From: a virus
Strand: one strand, 5' to 3'
DNA: 36,587 nucleotides
IMG/VR virus record: IMGVR_UViG_3300049846_000609
Location: 1 to 36,587 of that record
Both the position numbers and the translations under genes were made by a program. This document shows, in pieces, positions 19,920 to 31,941 of this stretch. Each line of letters begins with the position of its first letter. The stretch's first letter is position 1. The notes beneath the pieces are model-generated. The model did no database searches. It saw only the letters and a program-made list of their open reading frames with translations, and was not told the DNA's origin.

Positions 19920-20363
19920 ATGAAAACAAGCAAAGTAAAAGAGATCAAGAAAGTATCTGAGTACAATGGACAGAACGGTTTAACCTACTACCACAATCTA
20001 ATCATGGATAACGGAGACAAGTTAAACATCGGGAAGAAGGCAAAACTAAACACCGGAGACGAACTAACCTATGAATTAACGGGTGGTTCTGATGACCAAC
20101 AGGAGTATAAAAAAGCCAAGTCCGTTAAGCCTCAGTTTAACCAAAGTGGATATACCCATAAATACGAGCCTAAAGACACGAACGTTATAACCATGCTGTC
20201 ATGTATCAGCTCTGCCTGTAACGCTGTTAGTGGGTCTTCTAAATGCTCCGATAAGGGCTTTATCTTAGACATGGCTGAAAGCTTCTATTCCGCTGCCATG
20301 AGTAAGAGTAAGAACGAACCTGTAAATAATGAGGATAAATCTAATGATGATCTCCCCTTTTGA
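19920..20363 (+). CDS. ssb: Single-stranded DNA-binding protein-like
   Basis: This is a 147-aa protein. The N-terminal half reads like an OB fold (KEIKKVSEYNGQNGLTYYHNLIMDNGDKLNIGKKAKLNTGDELTYELTGG, about 7-56). The last residues DDLPF (143-147), after an acidic linker, are the hallmark C-terminal peptide by which SSB proteins recruit partners. It lies in the early region beside replication genes. The OB fold is shorter than in classical SSB, so it may be a divergent phage type. Confidence 0.65.
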   Translation: MKTSKVKEIKKVSEYNGQNGLTYYHNLIMDNGDKLNIGKKAKLNTGDELTYELTGGSDDQQEYKKAKSVKPQFNQSGYTHKYEPKDTNVITMLSCISSACNAVSGSSKCSDKGFILDMAESFYSAAMSKSKNEPVNNEDKSNDDLPF

Positions 20364-20364
20364 T

Positions 20365-20538
20365 ATGAAACGAGTAGAAACGGTAGAGGAATTTGAGGCT
20401 ACTTTCCCAGAACTAGACATAGATACTAAGATAAAACTAGCTGTGTTTATAGGCTTACATATGCCCTTTAAAAGCTTCGATAAGGAAAGATGGCGTAAAA
20501 TCGAAAGACTGCTAATAGATAAGAAAAGAGGTGGGTAA
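20365..20538 (+). CDS. Small protein at the left edge of the cassette array (57 aa)
   Basis: ATG 20365 follows the previous TGA by one base, so I prefer it to the longer frame from 20329, which overlaps ssb. The protein is MKRVETVEEFEATFPELDID..., ending KIERLLIDKKRGG. Its TAA stop (20536-20538) is part of the first attC-like sequence, so the native C terminus and downstream gene were probably replaced by the array junction. Confidence 0.5.
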   Translation: MKRVETVEEFEATFPELDIDTKIKLAVFIGLHMPFKSFDKERWRKIERLLIDKKRGG

Positions 20539-20565
20539 CGACTAAGGCTATACGCAGTTGCGAAC
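20534..20565 (+). repeat. attC-like left half-site
   Basis: TAACGACTAAGGCTA at 20536-20550 resembles the left arm of the sites at 21119 and 21496 (TAACGGTTGAGGCTA), continuing with a shared GCAGTTGC (20554-20561) at the same distance. The right arm is missing; sequence moves straight into a gene leader (AAATTAAACAAAATG). It marks the junction of phage DNA and array. Confidence 0.55.
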
Positions 20566-20581
20566 TTAAAAATTAAACAAA

Positions 20582-20824
20582 ATGATAAATAAAGAGGATT
20601 ACTTAAAAGCAAAAGAAACCGTAAAAAAATACGAAGAGCAATTGCGCATAGCCGATGTCGTGCGTAGTGCTTGGGTAGTATATAACATAAACGGAAATGT
20701 TATTGGTGTTGCAGATTCATACGGTAAAGCACTATCTATTTACGAAGCAAGATATGGAGATACGCCAAAATACCCAGATGAAAGCATAAATAAGTTTGAG
20801 GTTAATCGTCTGCATTACGCATAA
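20582..20824 (+). CDS. Cassette 1 protein (80 aa)
   Basis: An uncharacterised protein with an alpha-helical start (MINKEDYLKAKETVKKYEEQLRIA), then beta strands (AWVVYNINGNVIGVADS, a domain familiar from small cassette proteins). The stop codon TAA at 20822-20824 lies within the attC core GCATAACGG. The leader is A-rich. No enzyme motif. Confidence 0.55.
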   Translation: MINKEDYLKAKETVKKYEEQLRIADVVRSAWVVYNINGNVIGVADSYGKALSIYEARYGDTPKYPDESINKFEVNRLHYA

Positions 20825-20905
20825 CGGTAAGTATTGGTTTAGTAAAGCCCATCCAATACTTCAAATAAAAAAAGGGCTTTATTGAACCAATACATTGTTA
20901 AACGC
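20819..20905 (+). repeat. attC-like site 1
   Basis: Core GCATAACGG at 20819-20827 and GTTAAACGC at 20897-20905 enclose long arms: 20831-20850 pairs with 20874-20893, 18 of 20 bases. A short AT-rich loop lies between. The near-perfect palindrome with few mismatches is the expected attC form. Confidence 0.75.
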
Positions 20906-20919
20906 AAATAAAAATTATT

Positions 20920-21105
20920 ATGGGGAAAATAGAAATATCGCAAGACTTTTTTAGAAAGATATTGCTTGAAAAATTAAAAATTGTGGATGAAAAACTACGA
21001 AGAGCAGATGATGCAACTTACTCGAAAGATGAATTGCATGATGTGTGGGATGATATAAGGCAGAGTAATTTAATTTTGGAAGAGATTATAGATGCACTTG
21101 AATAA
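20920..21105 (+). CDS. Cassette 2 protein (61 aa)
   Basis: MGKIEISQDFFRKILLEKLKIV then an acidic helical half (KDELHDVWDDIRQSNLILEEIIDALE). It is probably an all-helical small protein; no family is recognised. It sits between attC-like sites 1 and 2 with a 15-base leader after the core. Confidence 0.5.
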   Translation: MGKIEISQDFFRKILLEKLKIVDEKLRRADDATYSKDELHDVWDDIRQSNLILEEIIDALE

Positions 21106-21114
21106 TTTTTATTT

Positions 21115-21209
21115 GCCTATAACGGTTGAGGCTAAAAGCAGTTGCCTATTGACAAATACTGCTTAATAACACGCTTAGTGGCAATTGCTTTTTAGCCTTT
21201 GTTATAAGC
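21115..21209 (+). repeat. attC-like site 2
   Basis: GCCTATAACGG at 21115-21125 and GTTATAAGC at 21201-21209 bracket an inverted repeat: 21126-21146 (TTGAGGCTAAAAGCAGTTGC on) with 21180-21201. The central part (ATTGACAAATACTGCTTAATA) is a variable loop. Bases 21119-21211 recur exactly at 21496-21588. Confidence 0.8.
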
Positions 21210-21227
21210 TGATAAAACTTACAAGCG

Positions 21228-21482
21228 ATGAGCAAATTTGTAGATGAATTATTAAAACAGATTTACAACGAAAAAGATACTTGGAAAAAGTATGGCAACG
21301 GAAAAGGTATTGAAAAAGGCAATATTAAGATTTACAATTTTGGAAACACTAAACTTCTTTCTGTTGTAAGTATTGATATTGAAGGGCAAGATATGCCTTT
21401 GACTTACATGGATAGATACAAGCTTGAAAAAGCAATAGGCTGGTGGTATAAGAATATAAGTTTAGAACGTGCGTTGGTGTAA
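21228..21482 (+). CDS. Cassette 3 protein (84 aa)
   Basis: An uncharacterised protein, MSKFVDELLKQIYNEKDTWKKYGNG..., with a central beta hairpin (IKIYNFGNTKLLSVVSIDIEG) and a helical C terminus. Its leader after the core ends AAGCGATG. The bases before the ATG and after the stop are complementary (GATAAAACTTAC against GTAAGTTTTAT), giving long cassette-end repeats. Confidence 0.5.
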   Translation: MSKFVDELLKQIYNEKDTWKKYGNGKGIEKGNIKIYNFGNTKLLSVVSIDIEGQDMPLTYMDRYKLEKAIGWWYKNISLERALV

Positions 21483-21491
21483 GTTTTATTT

Positions 21492-21586
21492 GCTTATAAC
21501 GGTTGAGGCTAAAAGCAGTTGCCTATTGACAAATACTGCTTAATAACACGCTTAGTGGCAATTGCTTTTTAGCCTTTGTTATAAGC
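21492..21586 (+). repeat. attC-like site 3 (exact copy of site 2)
   Basis: Bases 21496-21588 are identical to 21119-21211 over 93 positions. Core sequences are GCTTATAAC (21492-21500) and GTTATAAGC (21578-21586). Identical sites in neighbours suggest recent capture from one source array, or duplication. Confidence 0.8.
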
Positions 21587-21604
21587 TGTAAAATAAAATT
21601 AGCA

Positions 21605-21769
21605 ATGGAATACACAAGAGAAATAAAAATAGTAATTGAAAAAGACACTAACAAGTCAACAACAAAAGTTGGGTTGATATTAGGTGAGTATGATGAAAAC
21701 GAAACTGTAAAGGAATTTATTGAACGAGTAAAAGAATACATGGAAGATATGTTAATTACTAGTGGGTAG
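21605..21769 (+). CDS. Cassette 4 protein (54 aa)
   Basis: This short frame runs from ATG 21605 to TAG 21767-21769: MEYTREIKIVIEKDTNKSTT... then a helical acidic end (EFIERVKEYMEDMLITSG). The layout (strand, strand, helix) resembles small ribbon or RHH-like proteins, but no family is clear. It occupies a full cassette with complementary ends (TAAAATAAAATT on the left, AATTTTATTTTA on the right). Confidence 0.55.
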   Translation: MEYTREIKIVIEKDTNKSTTKVGLILGEYDENETVKEFIERVKEYMEDMLITSG

Positions 21770-21785
21770 GCAATTTTATTTTATT

Positions 21786-21860
21786 GCTTATAACTGCCTA
21801 ACGGATGCTCAAAGTTCGCACAATGTTTATGGCAGCTTTTGCCAAACCGCTGTTATGTGC
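21786..21860 (+). repeat. attC-like site 4
   Basis: It contains GCTTATAAC (21786-21794), an adjacent second core GCCTAACGG (21796-21804) and GTTATGTGC (21852-21860). An internal hairpin GGCA/TGCC lies near the right core. The doubled left core suggests a composite of two sites. Confidence 0.55.
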
Positions 21861-21897
21861 TGGGCGGTTTATCAGCACTGAATTTAATTTGAAAACG

Positions 21898-22128
21898 ATG
21901 ACAAAAAAAGATTTAGAAAGTATAGGGGTAATTTATGTTGGTAATGCAGCTTACCCAAAGAAGTTTTTTGTTCCACATGTAGGTGAGGTAAATTTACATG
22001 AGCCTTATAGCTTTGAGGAAATATTTAGAATGGTTTATCATAGTGGATATGAAAGAGGAATAAAATATGGCGAGGATAAAAAAATTTCTGAAATCAAACG
22101 GGTTCTTCAAATCGAAGACGGTCGGTAG
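21898..22128 (+). CDS. Cassette 5 protein (76 aa)
   Basis: ATG 21898 lies inside the cassette (after GTTATGTGC) and gives MTKKDLESIGVIYVGNAAYPKKFFVPHVGEVNLHEPYSFEEIFRMV..., a small mixed alpha/beta protein of unknown family. The longer frame from 21805 would read the attC site and is not used. The cassette ends GCACATAACG, complementary to its left core. Confidence 0.5.
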   Translation: MTKKDLESIGVIYVGNAAYPKKFFVPHVGEVNLHEPYSFEEIFRMVYHSGYERGIKYGEDKKISEIKRVLQIEDGR

Positions 22129-22132
22129 CCTT

Positions 22133-22175
22133 GCACATAACGTGCCGATTATTTGCGTTCGGTGGGGCGTTACAC
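22133..22175 (+). repeat. attC-like site 5 (degenerate)
   Basis: GCACATAACG (22133-22142) is followed by GCCGA/TCGG arms and GGGGCGTTACAC (22164-22175). The right core GTTACAC is off consensus, and an alternative core lies near 22183. Boundaries are uncertain; this is the weakest site of array A. Confidence 0.45.
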
Positions 22176-22211
22176 CACCAAAGTTGATTTGAAACACTAA
22201 AATATAATTAT

Positions 22212-22454
22212 ATGCTAAACGATGATTTGAAAAACAACACCCCCACTGACGCAAATAATGTGTTAGCGGATAGTGATTTTTGGGTGGAATGTAACGTATG
22301 TAAAACTCAATTGAAAAACTGGACAGGTTCAACGCCTTGTTGCGGTTCAATTGCTTGGATGGTTGAGGATGGTAAACCAACGAAAAAACTATCTCTATTT
22401 GCTTCGGTTGGCGGTGAACCGATTAAACCTACTATTGTCGATGTGGGTGGGTAA
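22212..22454 (+). CDS. Cassette 6 zinc-ribbon-like protein (80 aa)
   Basis: FWVECNVCKTQLKNWTGSTPCCGSIAWMVEDG (about 23-54) holds a CxxC and a CC pair, suggestive of a small zinc ribbon. The C terminus (LFASVGGEPIKPTIVDVGG) is less structured. The stop lies eight bases before the next attC core. Function unknown. Confidence 0.55.
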   Translation: MLNDDLKNNTPTDANNVLADSDFWVECNVCKTQLKNWTGSTPCCGSIAWMVEDGKPTKKLSLFASVGGEPIKPTIVDVGG

Positions 22455-22462
22455 AATCATTT

Positions 22463-22558
22463 CCGATAACGTTTTCGGGCTTGGCGAAGGTGGGCAAGTA
22501 GGATGCTCAAATTTAGCAGAATGTTTCTGCCCACTTTTGCCAAACCCGTGTTAGCAGC
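22463..22558 (+). repeat. attC-like site 6
   Basis: CCGATAACG (22463-22471) and GTTAGCAGC (22550-22558) enclose arms 22476-22496 (CGGGCTTGGCGAAGGTGGGC on) and 22528-22548, 18 of 21 bases paired. One of the clearest sites. Confidence 0.8.
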
Positions 22559-22637
22559 AGTAGGGAATGTTTAGCACAAAAGTTCAATCAGGGAACGAAA
22601 GAAAATTTTAATAAAAACCGAAGGGAAGGCAAAAAAT

Positions 22638-23333
22638 ATGTTTAGTTATTACGGAAGCAAATCAAAAATAGTGGACTATTACCCACCGCCAAAGCATAAA
22701 AGGATAATTGAACCTTTTGCTGGAAGTGCAAGGTATAGTTTGAAATACTGGCAGAACGATGTTTTGCTCGTAGATAAATACCACATAATTGTAAGGACTT
22801 GGAAATGGTTACAACAATGTAGCGAAAACGATATTAGAAAACTGCCAATATTGAAACTTGGCGAAACGCTTGATAACTTTGATTTAAGTGAAGATGAAAA
22901 GATATTTTTAGGATTTATAGTGCAACAAGGAACGACTGGATTAAGAAAAACTGTAGGTAGCTATGCAGTAGATGGAATAGTTACACAATTGAACAATGTT
23001 GCAACACAACTGCACAAAATCAAACATTGGGAAATAAGGGAAGCAAGTTATGAATATTTGGAAAACGAAGAAGCAACTTGGTTTATAGACCCACCTTATC
23101 AATTTGGTGGACACGAATACAAGTGTAGTAATAAACATATTAACTTTACAAAACTTGCTGAATGGTGTAAAGATAGAAATGGACAAGTAATAGTATGTGA
23201 AAACACTAAAGCTGATTGGTTGCCATTTAAGCCAATGGTAGATATGCAAGGTGCAATGTTTAAAACAACGGAGGCAATATGGTCAAACCACAAAACTAAT
23301 TATGATGCAATACAACAAACATTACAGTTTTGA
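22638..23333 (+). CDS. Cassette 7: D12-class adenine-N6 DNA methyltransferase
   Basis: The 231-aa protein begins MFSYYGSKSKIVDYYPPPKH. The AdoMet-binding motif I (IIEPFAGSARYSL) lies at about 23-35 and the catalytic DPPY at 151-154 (WFIDPPYQF). The motif order, I before IV, and the opening YYGSKSK are those of the Dam/D12 class. It modifies adenine in a short recognition sequence, likely shielding DNA from restriction. It is a complete cassette; its ends (GTTAGCAGCAGTAGGG and CCCTATTGCTGCTAAC) pair. It lacks phage-like leader sequence. Confidence 0.85.
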   Translation: MFSYYGSKSKIVDYYPPPKHKRIIEPFAGSARYSLKYWQNDVLLVDKYHIIVRTWKWLQQCSENDIRKLPILKLGETLDNFDLSEDEKIFLGFIVQQGTTGLRKTVGSYAVDGIVTQLNNVATQLHKIKHWEIREASYEYLENEEATWFIDPPYQFGGHEYKCSNKHINFTKLAEWCKDRNGQVIVCENTKADWLPFKPMVDMQGAMFKTTEAIWSNHKTNYDAIQQTLQF

Positions 23334-23411
23334 AAAAACTGATGTGCGTGGGCGGTTTTTATTAAAATTTTCCTGCACAAATGTCAAATTGGAAACGGTC
23401 AGCCCTATTGC

Positions 23412-23536
23412 TGCTAACGGTATCGAGCTATGCGCTGTTTAATAGATAAAATAAAATTAGAACTAATAATGTTTATAATGAGATTAAACATTTTAGATGA
23501 CGATGACGAAAATAGCGCATAGGTTGTGTTAGGTAT
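23412..23536 (+). repeat. attC-like site 7 with a long loop
   Basis: TGCTAACGG (23412-23420) and GTTAGGTAT (23528-23536) enclose stems CTATGCGCT (23428-23436) and AGCGCATAG (23514-23522). The 77-base loop between them contains a 17-codon frame (23469-23522, MFIMRLNILDDDDENSA). Confidence 0.7.
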
Positions 23537-23557
23537 CAGTATTTTTAAACAGAAGCG

Positions 23558-23809
23558 ATGGCAATAGATAAAACAACAAAAGGATATACAAAAAATTTAA
23601 ACATGGGAAAAAATTATTTTCACGAAAAATGGGATATGTATATTGGCAGAAAAGTGCGAATACATAGAAATGGAAGGTATGAAGATTTAAAAGAAGGAGC
23701 TACGGGTATATGGCAATATAAAGATGTTGAGGCTGGAATGGTTTCAATACTGATAGATGGTGAAGAACGAAATAGAATTTTTCACATTTTTGAGTATAGT
23801 TTCATTTAG
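23558..23809 (+). CDS. Cassette 8 protein (83 aa)
   Basis: MAIDKTTKGYTKNLNMGKNYFHEKWDMYIGRKVRIH then GATGIWQYKDVEAGMVSILIDG. The middle reads like a small beta-barrel (SH3/KOW-like) domain with 'G..v.i......G.tG.w' spacing. It ends array A. Its leader ends AAGCGATG and its two ends pair over about 20 bases (GTTAGGTA... with ...TACCTAAC). Confidence 0.5.
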   Translation: MAIDKTTKGYTKNLNMGKNYFHEKWDMYIGRKVRIHRNGRYEDLKEGATGIWQYKDVEAGMVSILIDGEERNRIFHIFEYSFI

Positions 23810-23830
23810 GTGGGAAGGGTTTAAAAATAT

Positions 23831-23856
23831 TGTACCTAACTAGCATATAGGTACAC
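23831..23856 (+). repeat. Terminal hairpin of array A
   Basis: TGTACCTA and TAGGTACA pair perfectly over 8 bases around ACTAGCATA. The left half is the cassette 8 core (CCTAAC); the right half TAGCATATAGGTACA recurs at the end of array B. No normal attC right arm is present. Confidence 0.6.
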
Positions 23857-23875: not shown

Positions 23876-24118
23876 ATGGATAAGGTTAAGATACAGGAGA
23901 ATACGGATAAATTAATAGACTTTGTTTGCAGGAAGTTTGAGGCCGGAGAGCTTGACAATGACAGTTTGGTTGAACTTTTTAAACTAAGCGGTGATTATCT
24001 TAACTTAAAAACAATATCTTTGTATGCAAAAGATAATAACATGAGTTATGAAGGGGTTAAGAAATGCCGAAAGATAGAAGAGATACATGGCGTTAAATAC
24101 GTTATAGATAATGACTGA
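23876..24118 (+). CDS. Small HTH-like phage protein (80 aa)
   Basis: The C-terminal half YLNLKTISLYAKDNNMSYEGVKKCRKIEEIHGVKYVIDND reads like a small DNA-binding unit ('t.s.yak..n.SY.GV.k.r'), similar to excisionase-like proteins. The N-terminal half is acidic and helical. It follows array A with a normal leader and overlaps the next gene by eight bases, so it belongs to the phage early operon. Confidence 0.5.
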   Translation: MDKVKIQENTDKLIDFVCRKFEAGELDNDSLVELFKLSGDYLNLKTISLYAKDNNMSYEGVKKCRKIEEIHGVKYVIDND

Positions 24119-24452
24119 CTTAGAAAAAGCTTTAGACCACATAGCCCAGAACATAAAGTCATACAGGGAGCTAAAACCGGATGATGGGAATGGGATGGTG
24201 GAATGTTTACAGCAAATAACCCCTACTCTTTATTATCTGGAAGGAGAGAGGGCAAAGGCACATGAGAAATACCAGGGTATAATCCAACGTCTCATCTTAG
24301 ATGGTAACTCAGTATCAAGGGCAGAGAATGAAGCCCACGTACAAGTACCAGAGATGTATATGTTAAGGAAGTTAATAGATTCAGCCTACACCACCACAGA
24401 GGCTATTAGATCGCATCTAAGTTGGATTAAACAGGGATTAAATGGACAATAA
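24111..24452 (+). CDS. Uncharacterised helical early protein (113 aa)
   Basis: A helical protein: MTDLEKALDHIAQNIKSYRELKPDD..., then YLEGERAKAHEKYQGIIQRLILDGNSVSRAENEA and YMLRKLIDSAYTTTEAIRSHLSWIKQ. Such proteins are found next to ninG in phages of this kind, but I do not know their function. It overlaps both neighbours. Confidence 0.5.
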   Translation: MTDLEKALDHIAQNIKSYRELKPDDGNGMVECLQQITPTLYYLEGERAKAHEKYQGIIQRLILDGNSVSRAENEAHVQVPEMYMLRKLIDSAYTTTEAIRSHLSWIKQGLNGQ

Positions 24453-24666
24453 CGAAGCACGTAAAATACTAGAAGATTGGATAAGTCATAGTATGAAATA
24501 TACTGATAAAATGACCCTTCCTGTAAAAGACGAGAATATTTACAATGGTGTAAGTTCAGTTAAAAAAAAGCAAAAAGATGGTATTAGCGCAGAAGGTGAT
24601 GTAGAGTTCTATTCCTATTCATTCAAACATTTATTAAAAATAGCATACGATTTAAAAGATGCCTAA
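24442..24666 (+). CDS. Small uncharacterised early protein (74 aa)
   Basis: MDNNEARKILEDWISHSMKYTDKMTLP..., with a polar middle and a C-terminal helix (FKHLLKIAYDLKDA). It overlaps the previous stop by 11 bases and the ninG start by eight, so it is part of the same operon. No family is recognised. Confidence 0.45.
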   Translation: MDNNEARKILEDWISHSMKYTDKMTLPVKDENIYNGVSSVKKKQKDGISAEGDVEFYSYSFKHLLKIAYDLKDA

Positions 24667-25177
24667 GCAAAAGAAGTGTAAAGTATGCGGTGAATCATTT
24701 AACCAGAAGAACTCACTTCAGACTATATGTTCATATCAATGTTATGTTAAATTTACATCTAAAAAAGAAGTAGATAAGCGCATAAAAGAGATGAAGAGAA
24801 ACCTTCAAAAGCTATCAGATATTGAGGCTATTGCTAAAAGGGTCTTTCAGAAGTGGGTACGATTAAGAGATGAAGGCAGGGGCTGTGTTTCATGTGGTGG
24901 TCAGATAAACGACGGTGGGCATTATTACGAAGCCGGAAAGTACTCAGGTCTTATATTCGATGAGGATAACGTACACGGTCAATGTAGGCACTGTAATCGC
25001 TTTCTTAGTGGTAATCTAATTGAATACAGAAAAGGACTAATAAAGAGGTATGGAATGGATTTTATTTTTAACTTAGAGGAAAAATCAGACAAGTTTAGAG
25101 ATAAGAAATACACCAGGGAAGAGCTGGAAGAGATAATAAAAGAATACAAAGAACGGATTAAATGCTTGACGAAATAG
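24659..25177 (+). CDS. ninG: NinG/Rap-like recombination protein
   Basis: The 172-aa protein opens with a zinc-finger-type CKVCGESFNQKNSLQTICSYQCYVK (about 5-29), a charged helix, then CVSCGGQINDGGHYYEAGKYSG (about 79-100) and HGQCRHCNRFLSGNLIEYRKGL (about 110-130). This is the order of NinG of lambdoid phages, which acts on branched recombination intermediates. It lies between the two cassette arrays and overlaps a small membrane gene. High confidence in the family; the junction-nuclease activity is from the family. Confidence 0.9.
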   Translation: MPKQKKCKVCGESFNQKNSLQTICSYQCYVKFTSKKEVDKRIKEMKRNLQKLSDIEAIAKRVFQKWVRLRDEGRGCVSCGGQINDGGHYYEAGKYSGLIFDEDNVHGQCRHCNRFLSGNLIEYRKGLIKRYGMDFIFNLEEKSDKFRDKKYTREELEEIIKEYKERIKCLTK

Positions 25178-25302
25178 ACTACGAAATGGGAGACTTTTTT
25201 AATGCAATAGCTGAGAATCCTGGCAAGGCCATAATGATCGGCATACTTATATTTTTAGTATCTTCGGTACGGATATATATAAACTTAGGTAATAAAGAGT
25301 GA
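25162..25302 (+). CDS. Small single-span membrane protein (46 aa)
   Basis: It starts ATG 25162 inside the end of ninG and ends TGA 25300-25302. The sequence MLDEIDYEMGDFFNAIAENPGKAIMIG leads into a membrane span (IMIGILIFLVSSVRIYI, about 24-40). It is the last gene before array B. Confidence 0.5.
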   Translation: MLDEIDYEMGDFFNAIAENPGKAIMIGILIFLVSSVRIYINLGNKE

Positions 25303-25312
25303 GTGGTTATGA

Positions 25313-25369
25313 ATATAACGGTTTGCAGATTGGCGGTCGTTTTAATGCCGCCAATGTGTTGTTATGTAT
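25313..25369 (+). repeat. attC-like site 8
   Basis: ATATAACGG (25313-25321) and GTTATGTAT (25361-25369) bracket a short stem ATTGGCGG/CCGCCAAT (25329-25336 and 25348-25355). No cassette gene precedes it, so it is the left edge of array B. Confidence 0.65.
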
Positions 25370-25393
25370 CAGTTTAATTTTTAAAAAATAGCG

Positions 25394-26059
25394 ATGGCAA
25401 GAATTTTAATAGCCTGTGAAGAAAGCCAGGCAACAACAAAAGAGTTTAGAAAATTAGGACACGAAGCTTTTTCGTGCGATTTATTACCTTGTAGCGGTGG
25501 GCATCCTGAATGGCATTACCAGTGCGATATTTTTGAGGTAATAAATAAAGGTTGGGATTTAATGGTTGCACATCCACCATGCACATTTTTAACAGGGAGT
25601 GGTGTTCAATGGTTATCACATCCCGAAGATAAGGCTTTACCGTTTGAGGAACGCAGACCGCACCCGAAATACCCGAATAGGAGAAACGATATGTTAGATA
25701 GTGTGGAGTTTGTAAAAGCCTTATACAATGCACCTATTGAACATATAGCCATTGAAAACCCTGTTGGATTGTTGAGCAGTAGATGGCGAAAACCTGACCA
25801 AATTGTGCAACCATATATGTTTGGGGATGAAGCAACGAAAACGACTTGCTTATGGCTTAAAAATTTGCCTTTGTTGTTGCCTACTGAAATTGTAGGTAAA
25901 GGAGAAAGGACTGTTTTTGCTTCGGGCAAATCTCATCCAAAATGGTATGCAGATGCTTTGGCACAAGCTAAAACAAAACAGGAACGACAAACGTTGAGAA
26001 GCAAAACATTTCCAGGAATGGCAGAGGCTTTTGCATTACAGTGGGGAGGGATTTTTTAA
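25394..26059 (+). CDS. Cassette 9: cytosine-5 methyltransferase-like protein
   Basis: The 221-aa protein starts MARILIACEESQATTKEFRKLGHEAFSCDLLPC, an AdoMet-binding fold start. The HPPCTFLTGSG segment (about 60-70) has the Pro-Cys catalytic pair of cytosine-5 enzymes and IENPVGLL (about 119-126) the ENP-like motif. It matches a compact phage family usually annotated as DNA cytosine methyltransferase; it lacks the long target-recognition domain, so activity is uncertain. Its leader ends AATAGCGATG, the cassette-type context, and its ends pair. Confidence 0.7.
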   Translation: MARILIACEESQATTKEFRKLGHEAFSCDLLPCSGGHPEWHYQCDIFEVINKGWDLMVAHPPCTFLTGSGVQWLSHPEDKALPFEERRPHPKYPNRRNDMLDSVEFVKALYNAPIEHIAIENPVGLLSSRWRKPDQIVQPYMFGDEATKTTCLWLKNLPLLLPTEIVGKGERTVFASGKSHPKWYADALAQAKTKQERQTLRSKTFPGMAEAFALQWGGIF

Positions 26060-26070
26060 AAATTAAATTG

Positions 26071-26204
26071 TACATAACGTTGACGGCTTGCCGCTGGTGG
26101 GGCAATCGGAGACGAAAAGTTCAAACCACCACTAAACTTTAATAGTAGCACAAATGATGAATATACCACTTCACCCCCACTTGCGGCAAACCGATGTTAG
26201 CAGC
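26071..26204 (+). repeat. attC-like site 9
   Basis: TACATAACG (26071-26079) and GTTAGCAGC (26196-26204) enclose arms 26084-26102 (CGGCTTGCCGCTGGTGGGG) and 26175-26193, with 16 of 19 bases paired. The loop is long (72 bases) and contains the start codon of the next gene. Confidence 0.75.
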
Positions 26205-26855
26205 AGCCCTTCTATTCGGTTGCTCAATGCCGACTGTGTGGAGGTAATGAAAACTTTTGAGGACAAACAATTTGATTTGGCAATAGTTGACCCACCTTAT
26301 GGATTGAACTTTGGGGCGTTTAACAGAACAAACAAGGATAGCAACGGAAACCGCTATAAAGCCAATAAATACCACAATGGAGATTGGGATAAAGAAACGC
26401 CCCAAGATGAATACTGGGAACAATTATTTAGGGTAAGCAAAAATCAAATTGTTTGGGGCGGCAACTATTTCCCGCTACCACCTACGCAATGCTTTATATT
26501 TTGGTATAAGCAGAACCCTGTTGCAAATTTTGCTGATGGTGAATTGGCGTGGACTTCATTTAAAAAACCTGCACTTTGTTTTGATTACCGCTATTATGGA
26601 GGGCTACAAGGCAATACAAGTGCAGAGACGAAAATACACCCAACACAGAAGCCTAAACAGCTTTACAAGTGGATTTTAAGCAAATTTGCAACAGAAGGGC
26701 AAACGATACTTGACACTCATTTAGGTAGCGGTAATAGTGCCGTTGCAGCGTGGGAAGAAAAGTTTTCATTTGTCGGAATAGAAATAAACGAAACTTATTA
26801 CAATAATGCAGTTAAACACTTTCAGGAACAGTCGGCACAGACGAGGCTCTTTTAG
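26154..26855 (+). CDS. Cassette 10: beta-class DNA methyltransferase (N6A/N4C)
   Basis: The protein has DPPY at 46-49 (LAIVDPPYGLNFG), a HPTQKP motif (162-167) and the AdoMet loop DTHLGSGNSAVAA (187-199). The order IV before I is the beta class; DPPY suggests adenine-N6, although N4-cytosine cannot be excluded. The ATG 26154 lies inside attC-like site 9, upstream of the predicted crossover; a TTG at 26220-26222 (residue 23) would start within the cassette. It likely modifies phage DNA. It is the last cassette of array B. Confidence 0.85.
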   Translation: MMNIPLHPHLRQTDVSSSPSIRLLNADCVEVMKTFEDKQFDLAIVDPPYGLNFGAFNRTNKDSNGNRYKANKYHNGDWDKETPQDEYWEQLFRVSKNQIVWGGNYFPLPPTQCFIFWYKQNPVANFADGELAWTSFKKPALCFDYRYYGGLQGNTSAETKIHPTQKPKQLYKWILSKFATEGQTILDTHLGSGNSAVAAWEEKFSFVGIEINETYYNNAVKHFQEQSAQTRLF

Positions 26856-26861
26856 GGTTGC

Positions 26862-26884
26862 TGCTAACTAGCATATAGGCACAT
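26862..26884 (+). repeat. Terminal motif of array B
   Basis: TGCTAAC followed by TAGCATATAGGCACA repeats the motif at 23837-23855 (one T/C change). A partial hairpin TGCTA/TAGGCA can form with one bulge. No attC right arm follows. Confidence 0.6.
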
Positions 26885-26895
26885 ATTTAACACGC

Positions 26896-27192
26896 CTATC
26901 CCTCCTTGAAATCATCTAGCTTCTTTTTAAGCTCTTCCGGCTTAAGATTACAGTATGTTACATTCCCACTTAAAAACACCACCTCACTAAAATGCTTCTT
27001 ATTTGTCCTTCCCTTTGGGATGATACATTTAGGCTCTATCCTGGCGATGGGGTCTTGGGTTAAGTCCCAATATCCAGTACCTATCATAAAGTCATCTTTT
27101 AACTCGTTTCTCATTCTGTCCACTTCATCCACTTCTTCATCTAATAGAGAAGAGGTAACGGGGTAAATAATTTCTACTTCAAAAAATATCAT
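26896..27192 (-). CDS. Uncharacterised protein (98 aa)
   Basis: It starts with ATG 27192, overlapping the exonuclease stop by four bases. The protein, MIFFEVEIIYPVTSSLLDEEVDEV..., is a beta-strand-rich acidic protein with PIARIEPKCIIPKGRTNKKHFSEVVFLSG in the middle. It converges on the end of array B. No family known. Confidence 0.5.
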   Translation of the reverse strand: MIFFEVEIIYPVTSSLLDEEVDEVDRMRNELKDDFMIGTGYWDLTQDPIARIEPKCIIPKGRTNKKHFSEVVFLSGNVTYCNLKPEELKKKLDDFKEG

Positions 27193-28196
27193 CTTGGTGT
27201 TGAGCTTAATAGTTTACCTGATCGCTTTGTGGCCTTTCTTTTCCTTCCAGTAGCCCCACATTTACACCTGAACATCTCATAGACATTCATAGTAGTGTGG
27301 TATAGTTTGCCCATCATTGTTAACTCTGAGCCTCCACAGGTAGGGCATCTTTCCTTATCATCTAAGATATGAAGTCCGATATTCGGGTGAGGTTTAATAA
27401 AAGGCCTCATGGTTAAATAGGTCTGTTCGTGTATTCTGACATCGTTAATGTTATATTTCTCCATCTTCTTTAAGGCTGATTCATCGCCATTAAAGCACCC
27501 CCTCCATAGCTCCATGTCGGTGTGGGTTTTTTGAGGTAATTTAAGAACCTTATTTATATAGTCTAGTTTGTTAGAAGTGAAGTTAAAATGCTTCTTAGCA
27601 CTCTTTAAGGTGTCTATTGATATATACGGAAGTGGAGGGTTTAAACCGTGTATTAAAGCCCTTGTATTGATTCTTGGAAGGTCGAACCTGTCCCCGTTGT
27701 GGGTTACGACTATATCAGCATCGTTGAGCATATCTAATAGTGATTTAACTATCCTTTTGTCATTATTAGACTGCGCTTCTTTAGGGGTAACTCTTGCTGA
27801 ATAAACCTTAGTATCGAACAGCCATTTAGCAGCCCATGTAAGAATAAACCAATCCGATCTAATATTCTCTGTGCTTATGTTCTGATTCCATATCCCCCAA
27901 ATATTAGCTAATAAAGGGGCTGTTTCAATGTCAAGAATTAGAATCCTGCCATAAACTTCTTCCTGTCTGTATTCGGCTTTTACCGTGTTGTAAGTTAGTT
28001 TCCTTAGATAGGTCTTATCCCTTAATTCTTTCCGGCTGGATTCTCCGTTGCTACCTGTGTAATACTTCACAGAGCCTCTTGCGGAGTTTAGGTTTTTAAA
28101 ATGCCCATCCTTTAAAAGGAGTTTAGCTATCTGTAATTTTGTTAGAGTATCTCCGTACTTTTCGAGATACTTTTTTGTAATTTCATTTTTTGCCAT
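27189..28196 (-). CDS. DEDD-type 3'-5' exonuclease with zinc ribbon
   Basis: The 335-aa protein has a helix-turn-helix-like N terminus (about 5-60: KKYLEKYGDTLTKLQIAKLL). The nuclease core follows: ILDIETAPL (Asp89, Glu91), VVTHNGDRFDLPRI (Asp172) and NINDVRIHEQTYL (Asp252), the DEDD residues of the RNase H-like YprB/RNase_H_2 group. The C terminus has CPTCGG (284-289) and CKCG (311-314), a zinc ribbon. It probably trims or degrades nucleic acid. It forms an operon with the 98-aa gene. Confidence 0.8.
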   Translation of the reverse strand: MAKNEITKKYLEKYGDTLTKLQIAKLLLKDGHFKNLNSARGSVKYYTGSNGESSRKELRDKTYLRKLTYNTVKAEYRQEEVYGRILILDIETAPLLANIWGIWNQNISTENIRSDWFILTWAAKWLFDTKVYSARVTPKEAQSNNDKRIVKSLLDMLNDADIVVTHNGDRFDLPRINTRALIHGLNPPLPYISIDTLKSAKKHFNFTSNKLDYINKVLKLPQKTHTDMELWRGCFNGDESALKKMEKYNINDVRIHEQTYLTMRPFIKPHPNIGLHILDDKERCPTCGGSELTMMGKLYHTTMNVYEMFRCKCGATGRKRKATKRSGKLLSSTPR

Positions 28197-28214
28197 GCCT
28201 TAAGGCAAATATAA

Positions 28215-28718
28215 CTATTTATCTAACATCTTCCTAATCGTTTCGCCATTAGCTTTAGAGCCAACAGAAGACCCACGATGGAAGTTGATAATAGTCATAG
28301 CCACCCCTGTAACGGCAGCGTAAAGGCCATAAATACCAGTTAAATCAACACTTGAAGTCTTTACTATCTTTAGGGCTGTGCCTATTAGATAAAGCGTTAA
28401 AACACCCCATAATAAGACTACAAACGCATCTATGCAATAAGCTATGTTCTTGGATAACCAACTAGCCTTGTCCGATTCTTGGATTTTAACATTTGCATCC
28501 CTAGCCCCCTGAACGTCCTTTAATTGGCTGTCTAGTTCACTCTGAGCAATGGAGGCCATTTTCTCCTCATGTTCGTTTTGAATCCTTATTAGATCGGTTT
28601 TAAACTGTTCCTTCTCTTCTTTGCTTAGTGTTAGATTATCCACTAGCTTGTCTACGTTTTTAACAAGCTCAGAAGCACCCCCACTAAATACGTTCTTTAT
28701 AAAATTTGGTAACGGCAT
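28215..28718 (-). CDS. Holin-like protein (3TM GTA-type)
   Basis: The 167-aa protein has an acidic N-terminal half with a coiled segment, then two hydrophobic spans (YCIDAFVVLLWGVLTLYLIG about 95-114; IYGLYAAVTGVAMTIINF about 128-146) ending with IINFHRGSSVGSKA, a signature of the phage/GTA holin-3TM family. It sits beside the endolysin gene. Holins open the inner membrane to release the endolysin. Confidence 0.75.
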   Translation of the reverse strand: MPLPNFIKNVFSGGASELVKNVDKLVDNLTLSKEEKEQFKTDLIRIQNEHEEKMASIAQSELDSQLKDVQGARDANVKIQESDKASWLSKNIAYCIDAFVVLLWGVLTLYLIGTALKIVKTSSVDLTGIYGLYAAVTGVAMTIINFHRGSSVGSKANGETIRKMLDK

Positions 28719-28736
28719 AATTATTGATTATATTTG

Positions 28737-28791
28737 AGTGTACGACATCCCCCCTTCCCATTAGAACAGGACGCTTAGGGGTGTCTTTTTA
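28737..28791. other. Hairpin element sharing a motif with 13264-13373
   Basis: AGTGTACG (28737-28744) occurs here as it does at both ends of the 13264 element. GACATCCCC (28744-28752) pairs with GGGGTGTC (28778-28785), one bulge, and is followed by TTTTTATTTT on the plus strand, the look of an intrinsic terminator for antisense transcripts. On the minus strand it sits between the endolysin stop and the holin start. CAGGACG also occurs in both elements. Confidence 0.4.
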
Positions 28792-29205
28792 TTTTATCCT
28801 TAATGTTTGGTTTCTATTTCCTGCTTTAGAGAATGAGATGTGAACCCAATCGGGGCCTGTATCATCTCCGTATTCGTAAATAAGTTGGTCAAAGATTAAA
28901 TTAGCTTTAGCCCACTCGTAAAGCTTTTTATTCTCTTCTTTACTCCCTGCTGACATATCAATAGCCTCCCCCTTACAATGCTGTGAGGTTAGTGAACCTT
29001 TAACAGCTTCGTTTAAAGCTTTACCCCTAAAGAAAGAATTAATCTTTATAGGCTTACCATACCACTCTCTTAAAGGCTCAAAGCATTTCTCAGCCACTAA
29101 ACGCATACTAGCTAACTCCGTTTCATTAGGTATATTCTCTATTCCTAGCCTTTTAGCTGTAGCCGAGAACGTAGCCTCGTATTCAGATATATGTTTACTT
29201 ATCAT
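28789..29205 (-). CDS. M15-type peptidase endolysin
   Basis: The 138-aa protein carries the peptidase M15A zinc ligands: SQHCKGEAID with His76 and Asp83, and WVHIS with His122. The NSFFRGKALN segment (about 56-65) is the family's lead motif. Such enzymes cut peptide stems of peptidoglycan. It lies between a small membrane protein and the holin, a classic lysis cassette. Confidence 0.9.
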   Translation of the reverse strand: MISKHISEYEATFSATAKRLGIENIPNETELASMRLVAEKCFEPLREWYGKPIKINSFFRGKALNEAVKGSLTSQHCKGEAIDMSAGSKEENKKLYEWAKANLIFDQLIYEYGDDTGPDWVHISFSKAGNRNQTLRIK

Positions 29206-29428
29206 CTCTTATCTTTGTTTCACTTGGTAATATAGCTAAATGCTGTTTTGGGACTTCTGCCACACCTGGATTCTCTAACTTCTTCATCCTCCACTCTAAC
29301 AGAGCGTGTTCGGCTATATGAACTTTCATATCTGACTTCAGGTCATACCACATTGAAGCTATGGTTAAAGTAAATCCGATTAGTTTAACCATGTCAGTTG
29401 TAGTAAAAGTTAAGCTATCTAGTTTCAT
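29195..29428 (-). CDS. Small membrane protein of the lysis region
   Basis: The 77-aa protein has one span (MVKLIGFTLTIASMWYDL, about 13-30), then a charged helical tail (SDMKVHIAEHALLEWRMKKLE). It overlaps the endolysin by 11 bases and the SGNH gene by four. It could be a second holin or spanin-like helper. Confidence 0.5.
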   Translation of the reverse strand: MKLDSLTFTTTDMVKLIGFTLTIASMWYDLKSDMKVHIAEHALLEWRMKKLENPGVAEVPKQHLAILPSETKIRDDK

Positions 29429-30597
29429 AAATAAGTAAGTATATTGTCCCTAATTTTATTTGAACCAGCTACACTAAAATGTATAGTATCAGCAGAACAA
29501 TCAGTACCGATTGTCCATCCTGAAGGTTCAGGTATTACCCTACTAGCATAAGTAGAACTAATCCATGTACTTAAAGCCGATTGATTAATAGGTGTTTCAC
29601 TTACAGGTAATTGATGCCATACCGTAATTCCTGCCCCCTGTAATTGACTTACTATACTAGCATAATTAGCCTGCCAAGTTCCTGAAGGAACCGAATACGC
29701 TAAGTCATTCCTTCCAATAAATATAATTACATTCTCAGGTCTTTTAGCTAATGTTTCAGGCAAAGCATTAAGTAAGTCCTGAGTAACGTTCCCAGAACCT
29801 GAAGATACCTGTACAATCTTATTTCTCGTTGAGGCTATTTGGTCAGCAAATCTATTTGCAAATGTGCTTACATAATAACCTTCACTCTTTGAATCTCCAA
29901 AGATTGTAAGCCATCCGTACTTATACTCGTTATCGGTTAGCTTAATAGAATTAAGAGTGTAATTCCCTTTGTAATTCCACATACACACCTGACTAACATT
30001 AGGGTAAATAGTTCCTACCGCACCTGGGTCAACAAGTCCAGTACTATTAGTATAAGTAGTGGTCATTGTTCCACCCTGTGTAAGATTGTTAGTAGTGAAC
30101 GTAATAGTATCTTCATTGAAAGTTATTAAACATTCAACCTGATCGCCATTTGATAAAGTCAATCTCCCAGCTCCACTATCAGCAACAGGAACACCGCTTG
30201 ATGGATCATTACAGTAAATCTCATGATATCCTTTATAAGAATCATTAGAAGTCCACAAGGCACAACTAAAAGAAGGCTTTGATGAGAACGTGGAAACACC
30301 CCTAACTCCTATTCCAAACAGAACATCATTGGCAGATACAGAAACCGTTACAACTGCCCTAATGGTGAAGTTCTCAGTTTGAAAAGTCCATTGGTTATAC
30401 CTTATAAGGCTTTCAAAACTTCCAGTTGCTCTATTGTACTGAATATTATTAGCGTTATAAGTTATCGTAGCTCCTGTTCCTTCTTCTGTCCAATTAGAGG
30501 AATTAAAGTCATCAGCAAACACCTGACCGTAAACAACAGGTGAATGATTTTTCCCACGCTTTAAACAAGGACTTATCCCTAAACCTATTCCCGGCAT
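29425..30597 (-). CDS. SGNH-hydrolase tail fibre/spike
   Basis: The 390-aa protein has a beta-rich N-terminal part (about 1-225) and an SGNH hydrolase domain at the C terminus. TIFGDSKSEGY holds nucleophile Ser236 in a GDS motif; GSGNV (about 267-271) and IGRND (Asn297) give the oxyanion-hole Gly and Asn; DTIHFS gives Asp370 and His373. Such domains remove acyl groups from surface polysaccharides. It is probably a receptor-processing spike. It shares a base with the upstream gene. Confidence 0.85.
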   Translation of the reverse strand: MPGIGLGISPCLKRGKNHSPVVYGQVFADDFNSSNWTEEGTGATITYNANNIQYNRATGSFESLIRYNQWTFQTENFTIRAVVTVSVSANDVLFGIGVRGVSTFSSKPSFSCALWTSNDSYKGYHEIYCNDPSSGVPVADSGAGRLTLSNGDQVECLITFNEDTITFTTNNLTQGGTMTTTYTNSTGLVDPGAVGTIYPNVSQVCMWNYKGNYTLNSIKLTDNEYKYGWLTIFGDSKSEGYYVSTFANRFADQIASTRNKIVQVSSGSGNVTQDLLNALPETLAKRPENVIIFIGRNDLAYSVPSGTWQANYASIVSQLQGAGITVWHQLPVSETPINQSALSTWISSTYASRVIPEPSGWTIGTDCSADTIHFSVAGSNKIRDNILTYL

Positions 30598-30887
30598 TAC
30601 AGTATATCGGCTTCTAATTTATAAGCAATCACAGACCCACTAGACGGGGTTATAGAGTTGAACAAATACCCTTCAGGGGCAAAAATCAATGTCCCTTGTT
30701 TTAGGGTTTTACCACTTAATCCAATAGTAGTTATAAAGTTAGTAGACGTTGCAGAGGGCGAAGTACCACCTGAAAGAGTGGTTAACACACAGTCTGAATT
30801 AACTACAAAACAATAAGCACCTACTGAAGTAGAGGCACTATCAATAAATTTACAACCTCCATCGGCTGTTATTCTGGCAGCTTCCAT
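30597..30887 (-). CDS. Small structural protein (96 aa)
   Basis: MEAARITADGGCKFIDSASTSVGAYCFVVNSDCVLTTLSG... is a compact Ser/Thr-rich beta protein common in phage structural operons. Similar proteins appear before fibres in Bacteroidota phages as decoration or fibre-linked parts. It overlaps the SGNH gene by one base. Function inferred from position. Confidence 0.5.
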   Translation of the reverse strand: MEAARITADGGCKFIDSASTSVGAYCFVVNSDCVLTTLSGGTSPSATSTNFITTIGLSGKTLKQGTLIFAPEGYLFNSITPSSGSVIAYKLEADIL

Positions 30888-30907
30888 ATTTTTATTTTTT
30901 ATTTAGT

Positions 30908-31342
30908 TTATTCACAAGTTGATCTATCGTAAAACTGTTCTATGTTTATATTCACCTCCACTCCGCTAACCTCATCATCAAACCTCTCAGTAAAAGGTGT
31001 TATACTTGATGTGGCATTAATTGTGGCTGTGTAGTTATCCTCTAATTCTTTTTTAAGCTCTGCATAAAATCTATATGAAGCCCGTGTCATGTCAGACAAT
31101 ACTTGGCTTTCGTTACTCTCATCCTTGTGGACTAAATCACAAAAGAATAGATTTAATGAAGTGGTCATTATCTTTCCGTTAATATTGGAAGAGATTAACC
31201 TACACCCAACAAAAGGGTATTGAATCCTGTTAGAAGCTCCGAACTCCCAGGGGTCACCAAAGTAGAAACTTCCGCTACTTAGCTGACTGCTCCCCGTTTG
31301 TAGGTCTTCCAGTATTGTTATTATCTTGCTTAGACTTAGCAC
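30908..31342 (-). CDS. Tail terminator/head-tail connector-like protein
   Basis: The 144-aa protein begins with GTG at 31342 (MLSLSKIITILEDLQTG). The phrase FYFGDPWEFGASNRIQYPFVGCRL and the following mixed alpha/beta pattern are typical of connector-type proteins in Bacteroidota phages. It follows the adaptor-like gene. A short alternative frame overlaps its start (31275-31400). Confidence 0.5.
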   Translation of the reverse strand: MLSLSKIITILEDLQTGSSQLSSGSFYFGDPWEFGASNRIQYPFVGCRLISSNINGKIMTTSLNLFFCDLVHKDESNESQVLSDMTRASYRFYAELKKELEDNYTATINATSSITPFTERFDDEVSGVEVNINIEQFYDRSTCE

Positions 31343-31400
31343 GTTTTTTCTCGAACTCTAATAGTTTTTTTAAATTCCCTTTATTTACTGAATTACTCAT
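31275..31400 (-). CDS. Short overlapping frame (41 aa)
   Basis: An ATG at 31400, overlapping the adaptor stop, opens a Lys/Asn-rich peptide (MSNSVNKGNLKKLLEFEKKR) ending TAG at 31275-31277. It bridges the gap between the adaptor and connector genes but overlaps the latter by 68 bases. It may be real; the evidence is only position. Confidence 0.3.
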   Translation of the reverse strand: MSNSVNKGNLKKLLEFEKKRAKSKQDNNNTGRPTNGEQSAK

Positions 31401-31941
31401 CTATATTATCTAAACTACAATCCCTATAATTCTCATTAAAGTATAATCCGTTGGTATAGTTATTCTTATTAGGCTGTGATTCATAACTCTCTGTATTGGC
31501 TGTATAAAGAGTATAAGTATTGGTATTAGCACATAGGTACTTAGTACACTTTTCCGCTAACTTCTCAGCCTGATTCTTCCACTTGTCCATTAAGAACTCG
31601 ATCTCTTCTAAACTGGCTGGCTGACTGTTCTCTGAACTCTTAACCATTACCCCCTTGTTCATGTATCTGTACTTAAACACAGGCGTACATTCACTTAAGA
31701 TATAATAGTGCATACAAGGGATTACGTAATTATCAAGTAAGGTCTGATTATTAGCACTCACCGTATTAGAGCTAATCTGACTTAGAATCTGATTATATAA
31801 TTGAGTGCCTAACAAATCCTCTATGTAAGCCTGTTGAACGTATTGTATGGTAGGGGTGATTACCTTCATGTCTGCATTATCATTGATAATAGAAACAGAC
31901 TTTAGATAATTCTCACCTACTATTAAATTAATTGTAGCCAT
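31393..31941 (-). CDS. Head-tail adaptor-like protein (DUF6712-like)
   Basis: The 182-aa protein is mostly helical: YVQQAYIEDLLGTQLYNQILSQI and YYILSECTPVFKYRYMNKGVMVKSSENSQPA, ending with a coiled stretch and a polar tail. The pattern matches a family of head-completion-type proteins in Bacteroidota phages (DUF6712). It overlaps the portal gene by one base, as expected for an adaptor. Confidence 0.6.
   Translation of the reverse strand: MATINLIVGENYLKSVSIINDNADMKVITPTIQYVQQAYIEDLLGTQLYNQILSQISSNTVSANNQTLLDNYVIPCMHYYILSECTPVFKYRYMNKGVMVKSSENSQPASLEEIEFLMDKWKNQAEKLAEKCTKYLCANTNTYTLYTANTESYESQPNKNNYTNGLYFNENYRDCSLDNIDE

Follow-up and report, generated by a model that had tools for sequence, protein, structure and literature searches.

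The 36,587-base virus record IMGVR_UViG_3300049846_000609, called here the window and analysed over its whole length, comes from a phage whose host is probably a member of Bacteroidota. It very probably carries two integron-type cassette arrays, each closed by an attI-like site, whose cassettes would be exchanged site-specifically by an enzyme acting in trans. Array 1 (20536-23856) is made of eight small open reading frames (ORFs) on the + strand with attC-like hairpins between them, and is flanked by an SSB-like ORF and a ninG gene. Array 2 (25302-26883) includes two attC-like sites and two methyltransferase genes. Both arrays terminate rightward in TAA^CTAGCATATAGGYACA, which resembles an attI site. 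A sequence-only reading of this DNA had proposed eight same-strand genes alternating with palindromic sites, and the ORF list, the site scan and the folding all bear out this alternation, so that the observation of array 1 is confirmed. The placement between an SSB-like gene (19920-20363) and ninG (24659-25177) also proved right. Concerning its extent, the right end of array 1 is TAACTAGCATATAGGTACA, and a second array with the same end had been overlooked. The best reading of the locus is still that of an integron-like cassette array devoid of integrase and set within a phage early region, with the refinement that an attI-like site closes each array.

Cassette turnover between related phages

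Over long stretches of 24099-32854, the window shares 98-99% identity with the contig IMGVR_UViG_3300049893_000422 (L001), in which array 2 nevertheless has other genes and other sites. Identity stops leftward at GGTTATGAATATAAC and restarts rightward at TAACTAGCATATAGGCACA, each break falling at TAAC. The same rule holds for a second pair of phage contigs, L002 and L003: they agree at 99.2% on one side of the array and at 98.5% on the other, while their cassettes differ, again between TAAC boundaries. Furthermore, a shared cassette, a 685-nucleotide (nt) piece that is 99.7% identical in these two contigs, opens one array but occupies a later position in the other. A cut at the R' box (G^TT) was considered for both pairs and rejected because identity breaks at TAAC on both sides. 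The rearranged loci that the sequence-only reading had envisaged in related phages are therefore found. Relatives that all kept one gene order and lacked end complementarity would have spoken against it; instead, near-identical phages differ in their genes and complementarity is systematic.

A third comparison involves an otherwise unrelated contig, L156. The window cassette at 25361-26078 (718 nt from GTTA to TAAC) is 94% identical end to end to positions 2584-3301 of L156, and the two sequences have no other match outside the arrays. Identity ceases at exactly GTTA and TAAC, and the hairpins differ on both sides. Gain or loss of cassettes at recombination boxes, as in integrons, is thus seen in all three pairs. 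More generally, 35% of the alignment ends between viral arrays (n = 568) lie within 8 nt of an R box vs 4% expected at random. Left ends at R'' prevail, making up 141 of the 183 ends that are close in both sequences. This clustering points to a mobile unit composed of an attC hairpin and the gene that follows it, with limits at AA^C in the R'' boxes.

Alternatively, the window could contain an ordinary integrase-less attC cluster, acquired from a bacterial integron through illegitimate recombination and no longer active. The absence of a recombinase from the record, the decay of two of the eight sites of array 1 and the previous description of similar attC clusters in phages (Qi et al. 2023, PMC9892861) would all suit such an origin. 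However, an inert cluster does not account for cassette turnover with exact TAAC boundaries between phages that are 98-99% identical, nor for an attI-like end at both arrays.

Two other differences between the window and L001 were observed. At 29425-30894, a 390-amino-acid (aa) ORF is replaced by 348- and 155-aa ORFs (- strand) without attC, which looks like a swapped structural gene. At 24476-24654, about 178 nt including most of a 74-aa ORF are missing from L001, and no attC boxes are present.

attC-like sites and complementarity of cassette ends

Sites were sought with a custom scanner (TAAC, a stem beginning 3-8 nt later and GTTA 0-6 nt past the stem), which is home-made and was used in place of the attC covariance model or HattCI. 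It found seven + strand sites scoring at least 30 in the window, all inside the arrays. Chance palindromes were ruled out by 15 dinucleotide shuffles, which gave 0-1 site each. The attC-like cores of the sequence-only reading are present, but they do not follow a strict RYYYAAC; the actual cores are NNNTAAC and GTTANNN. When folded as single-stranded DNA, seven of the nine sites tried first gave z values of -2.9 to -4.9, and one further site gave -2.9. The + strand fold is at least slightly more stable than the - strand fold in seven of eight sites compared, and it usually pairs TAAC with the GTTA box. In array 1, six of the eight sites are intact and fold at z -2.9 to -4.8, as expected from the palindromes proposed earlier, but those at 20536 and 21791 are decayed, one having a mutated R' box and the other lacking its left arm. 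A search of the window against Rfam gave no match. Having at least two attC sites within about 4 kb that part small ORFs, and no integron integrase in the element, the window has the composition of a cluster of attC sites lacking an integron integrase (CALIN).

Integron cassettes have complementary ends, and so do these. Across 171 viral cassettes, the start and the reverse-complemented end agree at positions 5-9 in 71-92% (28-55% for re-paired ends) and at positions 12-15 in 67-74% (26-40% when re-paired). Position 11 of the cassette end is invariably A and is matched in only 11%. The 19 cellular cassettes that we examined show the same complementarity at positions 5-9 and little further on.

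attI-like sites and the associated recombinase family

The putative attI site found at one end of each array, TAA^CTAGCATATAGGYACA, agrees with attI-like sites located beside a family of tyrosine recombinases in Flavobacteriales genomes and in many viral contigs. These sites have TAACTACTATATGTATTT-type forms, the window's own being TAACTAGCATATAGGCACA. The exact sequence is not common, since scanning viral contigs for it matched only that of L001; the looser motif is common.

An attC-consensus scan of bacterial and archaeal genomes matched 14 stretches, and all of the group-named records among them are Bacteroidota, mostly Flavobacteriales. At the cellular locus L031, the order is array, attI-like TATAACTAGCTTATAGGGATGA, tyrosine recombinase and enolase, and the attI motif resembles the phage one. 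The cellular recombinases (375-399 aa) have an additional N-terminal part of ~100 aa, and among 399 genomes sampled from one order, 172 encode the family. In 20 further cellular loci, 17 attC-like sites lie downstream of the recombinase, all of one polarity and none of the other. The family obtains its best score with a XerA-like model (NF040815) and falls below the cut-off of the integron-integrase model TIGR02249. It aligns to IntI4 in two pieces, the IntI-specific insert of ~40 residues that characterizes canonical IntI being absent. For an AlphaFold model of the long recombinase (pLDDT 78, pTM 0.47), tyrosine recombinases were the only proteins among the matches listed from the PDB, none of which corresponded separately to the N-terminal domain.

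A short recombinase (267-289 aa) without the N-terminal part is encoded by six of the 50 viral records with arrays, and a scan starting from such phage proteins found at least 515 viral stretches. Whereas the phage loci had first been gathered by one attC sub-pattern, this recombinase-based set is independent of it. Where enough upstream DNA was available, attC precede the recombinase gene in 57 of 63 viral loci, and this gene lies at the attI end of the array. The attC number 189 in the expected (+) polarity vs 8 in the other, and the 361 kb downstream contain a single one; because the 80 viral recombinase loci include several near-identical contigs, some of these observations are not independent. 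A motif TTGNNNNTAA^CTACTATATGTATTT, of the TAA^C-TATATGTA attI type, is located ~63 nt before many viral recombinase genes. The two right ends of the window fit this motif, but other genes follow. In a tree, the recombinases of phages and of cells group together to the exclusion of XerA, XerD and IntI4 (support 98/94; the outgroup branches are long), and within this clade the long cellular ones are monophyletic (98/91). In some cellular loci (L066, L067, L072 and L080), a near-perfect palindrome (e.g. GTGCACTAGTGCAC) located between the recombinase stop codon and the first cassette replaces the TATATA-type attI; it could act as a terminator or represent another type of attI.

No recombinase of this family is encoded by the window, L001, L002 or the two huge phages checked. 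As the sequence-only reading had stated, no integrase is visible in the window record: searches with TIGR02249 and A1 for IntI or a related recombinase were empty. A recombinase beside attI, absent from the window, is present in many of its relatives, and the window belongs to a phage type that commonly has a dedicated one.

The linked tyrosine recombinase might only integrate the phage, the genes being moved by another hairpin-acting enzyme such as an HUH/Y1-type transposase or a host IntI. Canonical IntI1 has been reported to recombine an attC from Polaribacter phage P12002L, and this phage has sites of the present type, which may be the ones tested (PMC9892861). Against this, the attI end of the array is where the recombinase is found in those 57 of 63 viral loci, and in cellular genomes its long relative adjoins attI and arrays. 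We consider this explanation decidedly unlikely.

Gene orientation, start codons and cargo

Of the 153 viral cassette ORFs with at least 60 aa, 146 are directed toward attI, as judged from attC polarity, and seven away from it, several of these exceptions resembling spurious ORFs. In contrast, all 19 cellular cassette ORFs, counted in seven loci, point away from attI. The canonical arrangement, with cassette genes directed away from attI, is thus not that of the phage arrays. The two classes do not stem from an artefact of the scanner: in each of them, the invariant A at position 11 obeys the same polarity. With 146:7 vs 0:19, the phage arrays are therefore not simple captures of host arrays, which is a further argument against an inert cluster of bacterial origin, an explanation that we judge unlikely.

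In 121 of 206 long viral attC (at least 100 nt), a start codon in the loop opens an ORF that extends 45 codons or more into the cassette, vs 59.5 (standard deviation 5.6) after attC and cassettes are re-paired. Since this exceeds the re-paired control, the phage attC seems to double as a 5' expression module. Three window cassettes start in an attC loop (20582, 22212 and 26154).

These start codons, in frame within long hairpins, together with the position of the hairpins between co-directional genes and their recurrence in similar forms across phages, could also be expected of RNA elements (terminators, processing sites or leaders), the gene differences then resulting from homologous recombination between similar hairpins. 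However, RNA function does not explain why complementarity links, across the gene, the start and the end of one cassette, nor why the A at position 11 is invariant and rarely matched. Moreover, tyrosine recombinase genes lie at one fixed array end, and the exchange boundaries are at TAAC, outside the homologous stems. RNA elements are hence a very improbable explanation, and cassettes exchanged by site-specific recombination remain our preferred reading.

Among 130 phage cassette proteins, Pfam recognizes 13 N6/N4 DNA methylases, 3 C5 methylases, 2 MT-A70 and 2 D12 methylases, as well as one Mom and one Acb2/Tad1 hairpin domain (anti-CBASS/anti-Thoeris type). PHROGs concur: methyltransferases predominate among recognisable cargo, and most cassettes have no recognised function.

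Other records carry similar sequences. L008, a contig of a 0.7-Mb bin named uncultured bacterium, has seven attC sites with phage-type gene orientation and may be a mis-binned large phage. The huge-phage records LR756502 (L004), LR745206 (L005) and LR756501 (L006), of 634-735 kb, match sequences of the window arrays. L004 and L005 have cassettes and attC-like sites of this type; L006 encodes a homologue of the methyltransferase at 22638-23333.

Organisation of the two arrays

All features described here are on the + strand. Upstream of array 1, the ORF at 19920-20363 has an SSB-like C-terminal tip; a search for its relatives obtained none. A phage gene of 69 aa (20329-20538) has its stop codon overlapping the left edge of the array. 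Site 1 (20536-20660) is a decayed site of the long type, with its left arm at 20547-20561 and its right arm at 20640-20654. Its R' box is GTCG instead of GTTA, which is kept by a 93%-identical intact copy at positions 3365-3499 of L085. The sequence directly after its TAAC gives no fold, the right arm lying further on, inside the 80-aa ORF at 20582-20824 that starts in its loop and has no family above cut-off. Site 2 (20822-20900; scan score 44, z -4.4) precedes a 61-aa ORF (20920-21105). Sites 3 (21120-21204; score 42, z -3.1) and 4 (21497-21581; score 42, z -4.8) are near-copies within a 114-nt repeat (96%) and are followed by ORFs of 84 aa (21228-21482) and 54 aa (21605-21769), respectively. 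The decayed site 5 (21791-21855) has lost its left arm and has no stable fold (z 0); the homologous site in L004 retains this arm. It overlaps an ORF of 107 aa (21805-22128) in which a later in-frame ATG is the likelier start. Site 6 (22138-22265), of the long type (score 42.5, z -2.9), contains in its loop the start of an 80-aa ORF (22212-22454). None of these ORFs from 20920 onward has an assigned function.

Site 7 (22467-22553; score 46.5, z -3.6), which is 94% identical to a site of L106, precedes a gene for a D12-class DNA methyltransferase (22638-23333, 231 aa; PF02086, E 1.4e-6; phrog_56, E 3.8e-14) that is 59% identical to a cassette of L156. Site 8 (23415-23531; score 32.5, z -4.0) is followed by the final cassette ORF (23558-23809, 83 aa), without assigned function. 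Array 1 ends at attI-like site 1, TAA^CTAGCATATAGGTACA (23837-23856), whose motif is found again in L001, at the end of array 2, and next to the recombinase genes of L031 and of viral loci. The ninG gene that follows matches phrog_171.

The left edge of array 2, ..GGTTATGAATATAA^C (25302-25319), is identical in L001. A short-type site (25316-25364; score 24.5, z -4.9), 96% identical to a site of L141, precedes a DNA methyltransferase gene (25394-26059, 221 aa; phrog_757, E 1.5e-62), which is the gene of the cassette shared with L156 (25361-26078). A long-type site (26075-26199; score 40.5, z -2.9) follows, and its loop provides the start codon of a second DNA methyltransferase gene (26154-26855, 233 aa; phrog_67, E 2.1e-41). 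The right end is attI-like site 2, TAA^CTAGCATATAGGCACA (26865-26883), exactly where identity with L001 resumes.

Proposed mechanism

In the mechanism that we propose, units made of an attC hairpin and its gene would be exchanged by site-specific recombination, and new units would enter at the attI-like site, at the promoter-distal end of each array. The XerA/IntI-like family, short in phages and long with an extra N-terminal domain in Flavobacteriales, would catalyse this exchange. The window phage, which encodes no member of it, would use a recombinase supplied in trans by its host or by a co-infecting phage. Cassette genes would be expressed by read-through from the early operon and may help the phage against host defences, DNA methyltransferases being the main recognisable cargo.

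Several points weigh against this reading. The window and L156 share a gene without either flanking hairpin, which a simple one-cut model leaves unexplained; hairpins and genes can therefore also separate, and to account for this pair, either both ends of the hairpin must have been used or some other process must have acted. As metagenome contigs, the near-identical phages could conceivably be chimeric assemblies, although the same boundary rule recurs. Since neither the window nor L001 encodes a member of the recombinase family, the source of the enzyme is only inferred, and the host of the window phage is deduced likewise. Finally, the sites, their polarity, the exact exchange boundaries, the shared cassettes, the attI motif and the link between arrays and recombinase are all read from sequence, and the recombination behind them is deduced from it.

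With somewhat less assurance, we think it likely that Bacteroidota phages have an integron class of their own, with a short recombinase devoid of the insert, inverted genes and start codons in attC. The orientation of the genes relative to attC and attI would mean that the arrays are read from the phage operon. Flavobacteriales would harbor a sister class with a long recombinase and canonical orientation. The window would then be a recombinase-less member with two attI-like docking sites and an enzyme provided in trans.

Relation to known systems and significance

Canonical integrons have in common with these elements hairpin attC with R and L boxes, a G^TT-type cut, attI beside the recombinase, small cassettes and complementary ends. 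They differ by the insert of IntI, whereas phage arrays have genes directed toward attI, attC located 5' of the gene and often giving its start codon, and longer end complementarity. In Treponema-type chromosomal integrons (PMC3607928), the direction of the recombinase is that of the cellular loci described here; the recombinase is apparently another one, and the phage arrays are inverted relative to attI. The closest solved relatives by sequence and fold are XerA/XerC-like tyrosine recombinases (PDB 5hxy, 4a8e), from which the present family differs by its link to attC arrays and, in cellular members, by the additional domain of ~100 aa. Within Bacteroidetes proper, IntegronFinder 2.0 reported Salinibacter alone as having a complete integron.

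Among 10,705 phage genomes, Qi et al. (2023, PMC9892861) found 17 CALINs as well as a small number of complete integrons, and they reported recombination by IntI1 of five of six phage attC sites, one of them from P12002L. Those CALINs share with ours attC clusters without integrase in virulent phages and methyltransferase cargo. Unlike here, the accessible part of that report describes no attI for the clusters of virulent phages (a Shewanella prophage CALIN has one). It also describes no phage recombinase of the present family, no exchange between near-identical phages and no inverted orientation, and its 17 CALINs compare with at least 515 recombinase-bearing viral stretches here. Because phage attC clusters were already described in 2023, the phage setting alone is not new. 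In our own scan, two attC-like sites of the kind described here flank a methyltransferase cassette close to ninG in the isolated and culturable phage P12002L (L202; record 38035-38936), in a region that also contains a Mom-like gene. Searches of the openly accessible literature (subscription papers and preprints being outside this scope) brought up no paper describing such phage integrons.

Integrons are regarded as bacterial tools and phages as their rare carriers. Our data suggest that one integron type is widespread among the phages of a single phylum, often has its own recombinase, transfers genes between near-identical phages and is rich in DNA methyltransferases. In addition, these recombinases would probably escape any screen in which the IntI-specific domain is mandatory. 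If this is true, phages would have a routine route to trade counter-defence genes, by means of a cassette system in which attC lies 5' of the genes, and the mobilisation in trans of integrase-less arrays becomes testable.

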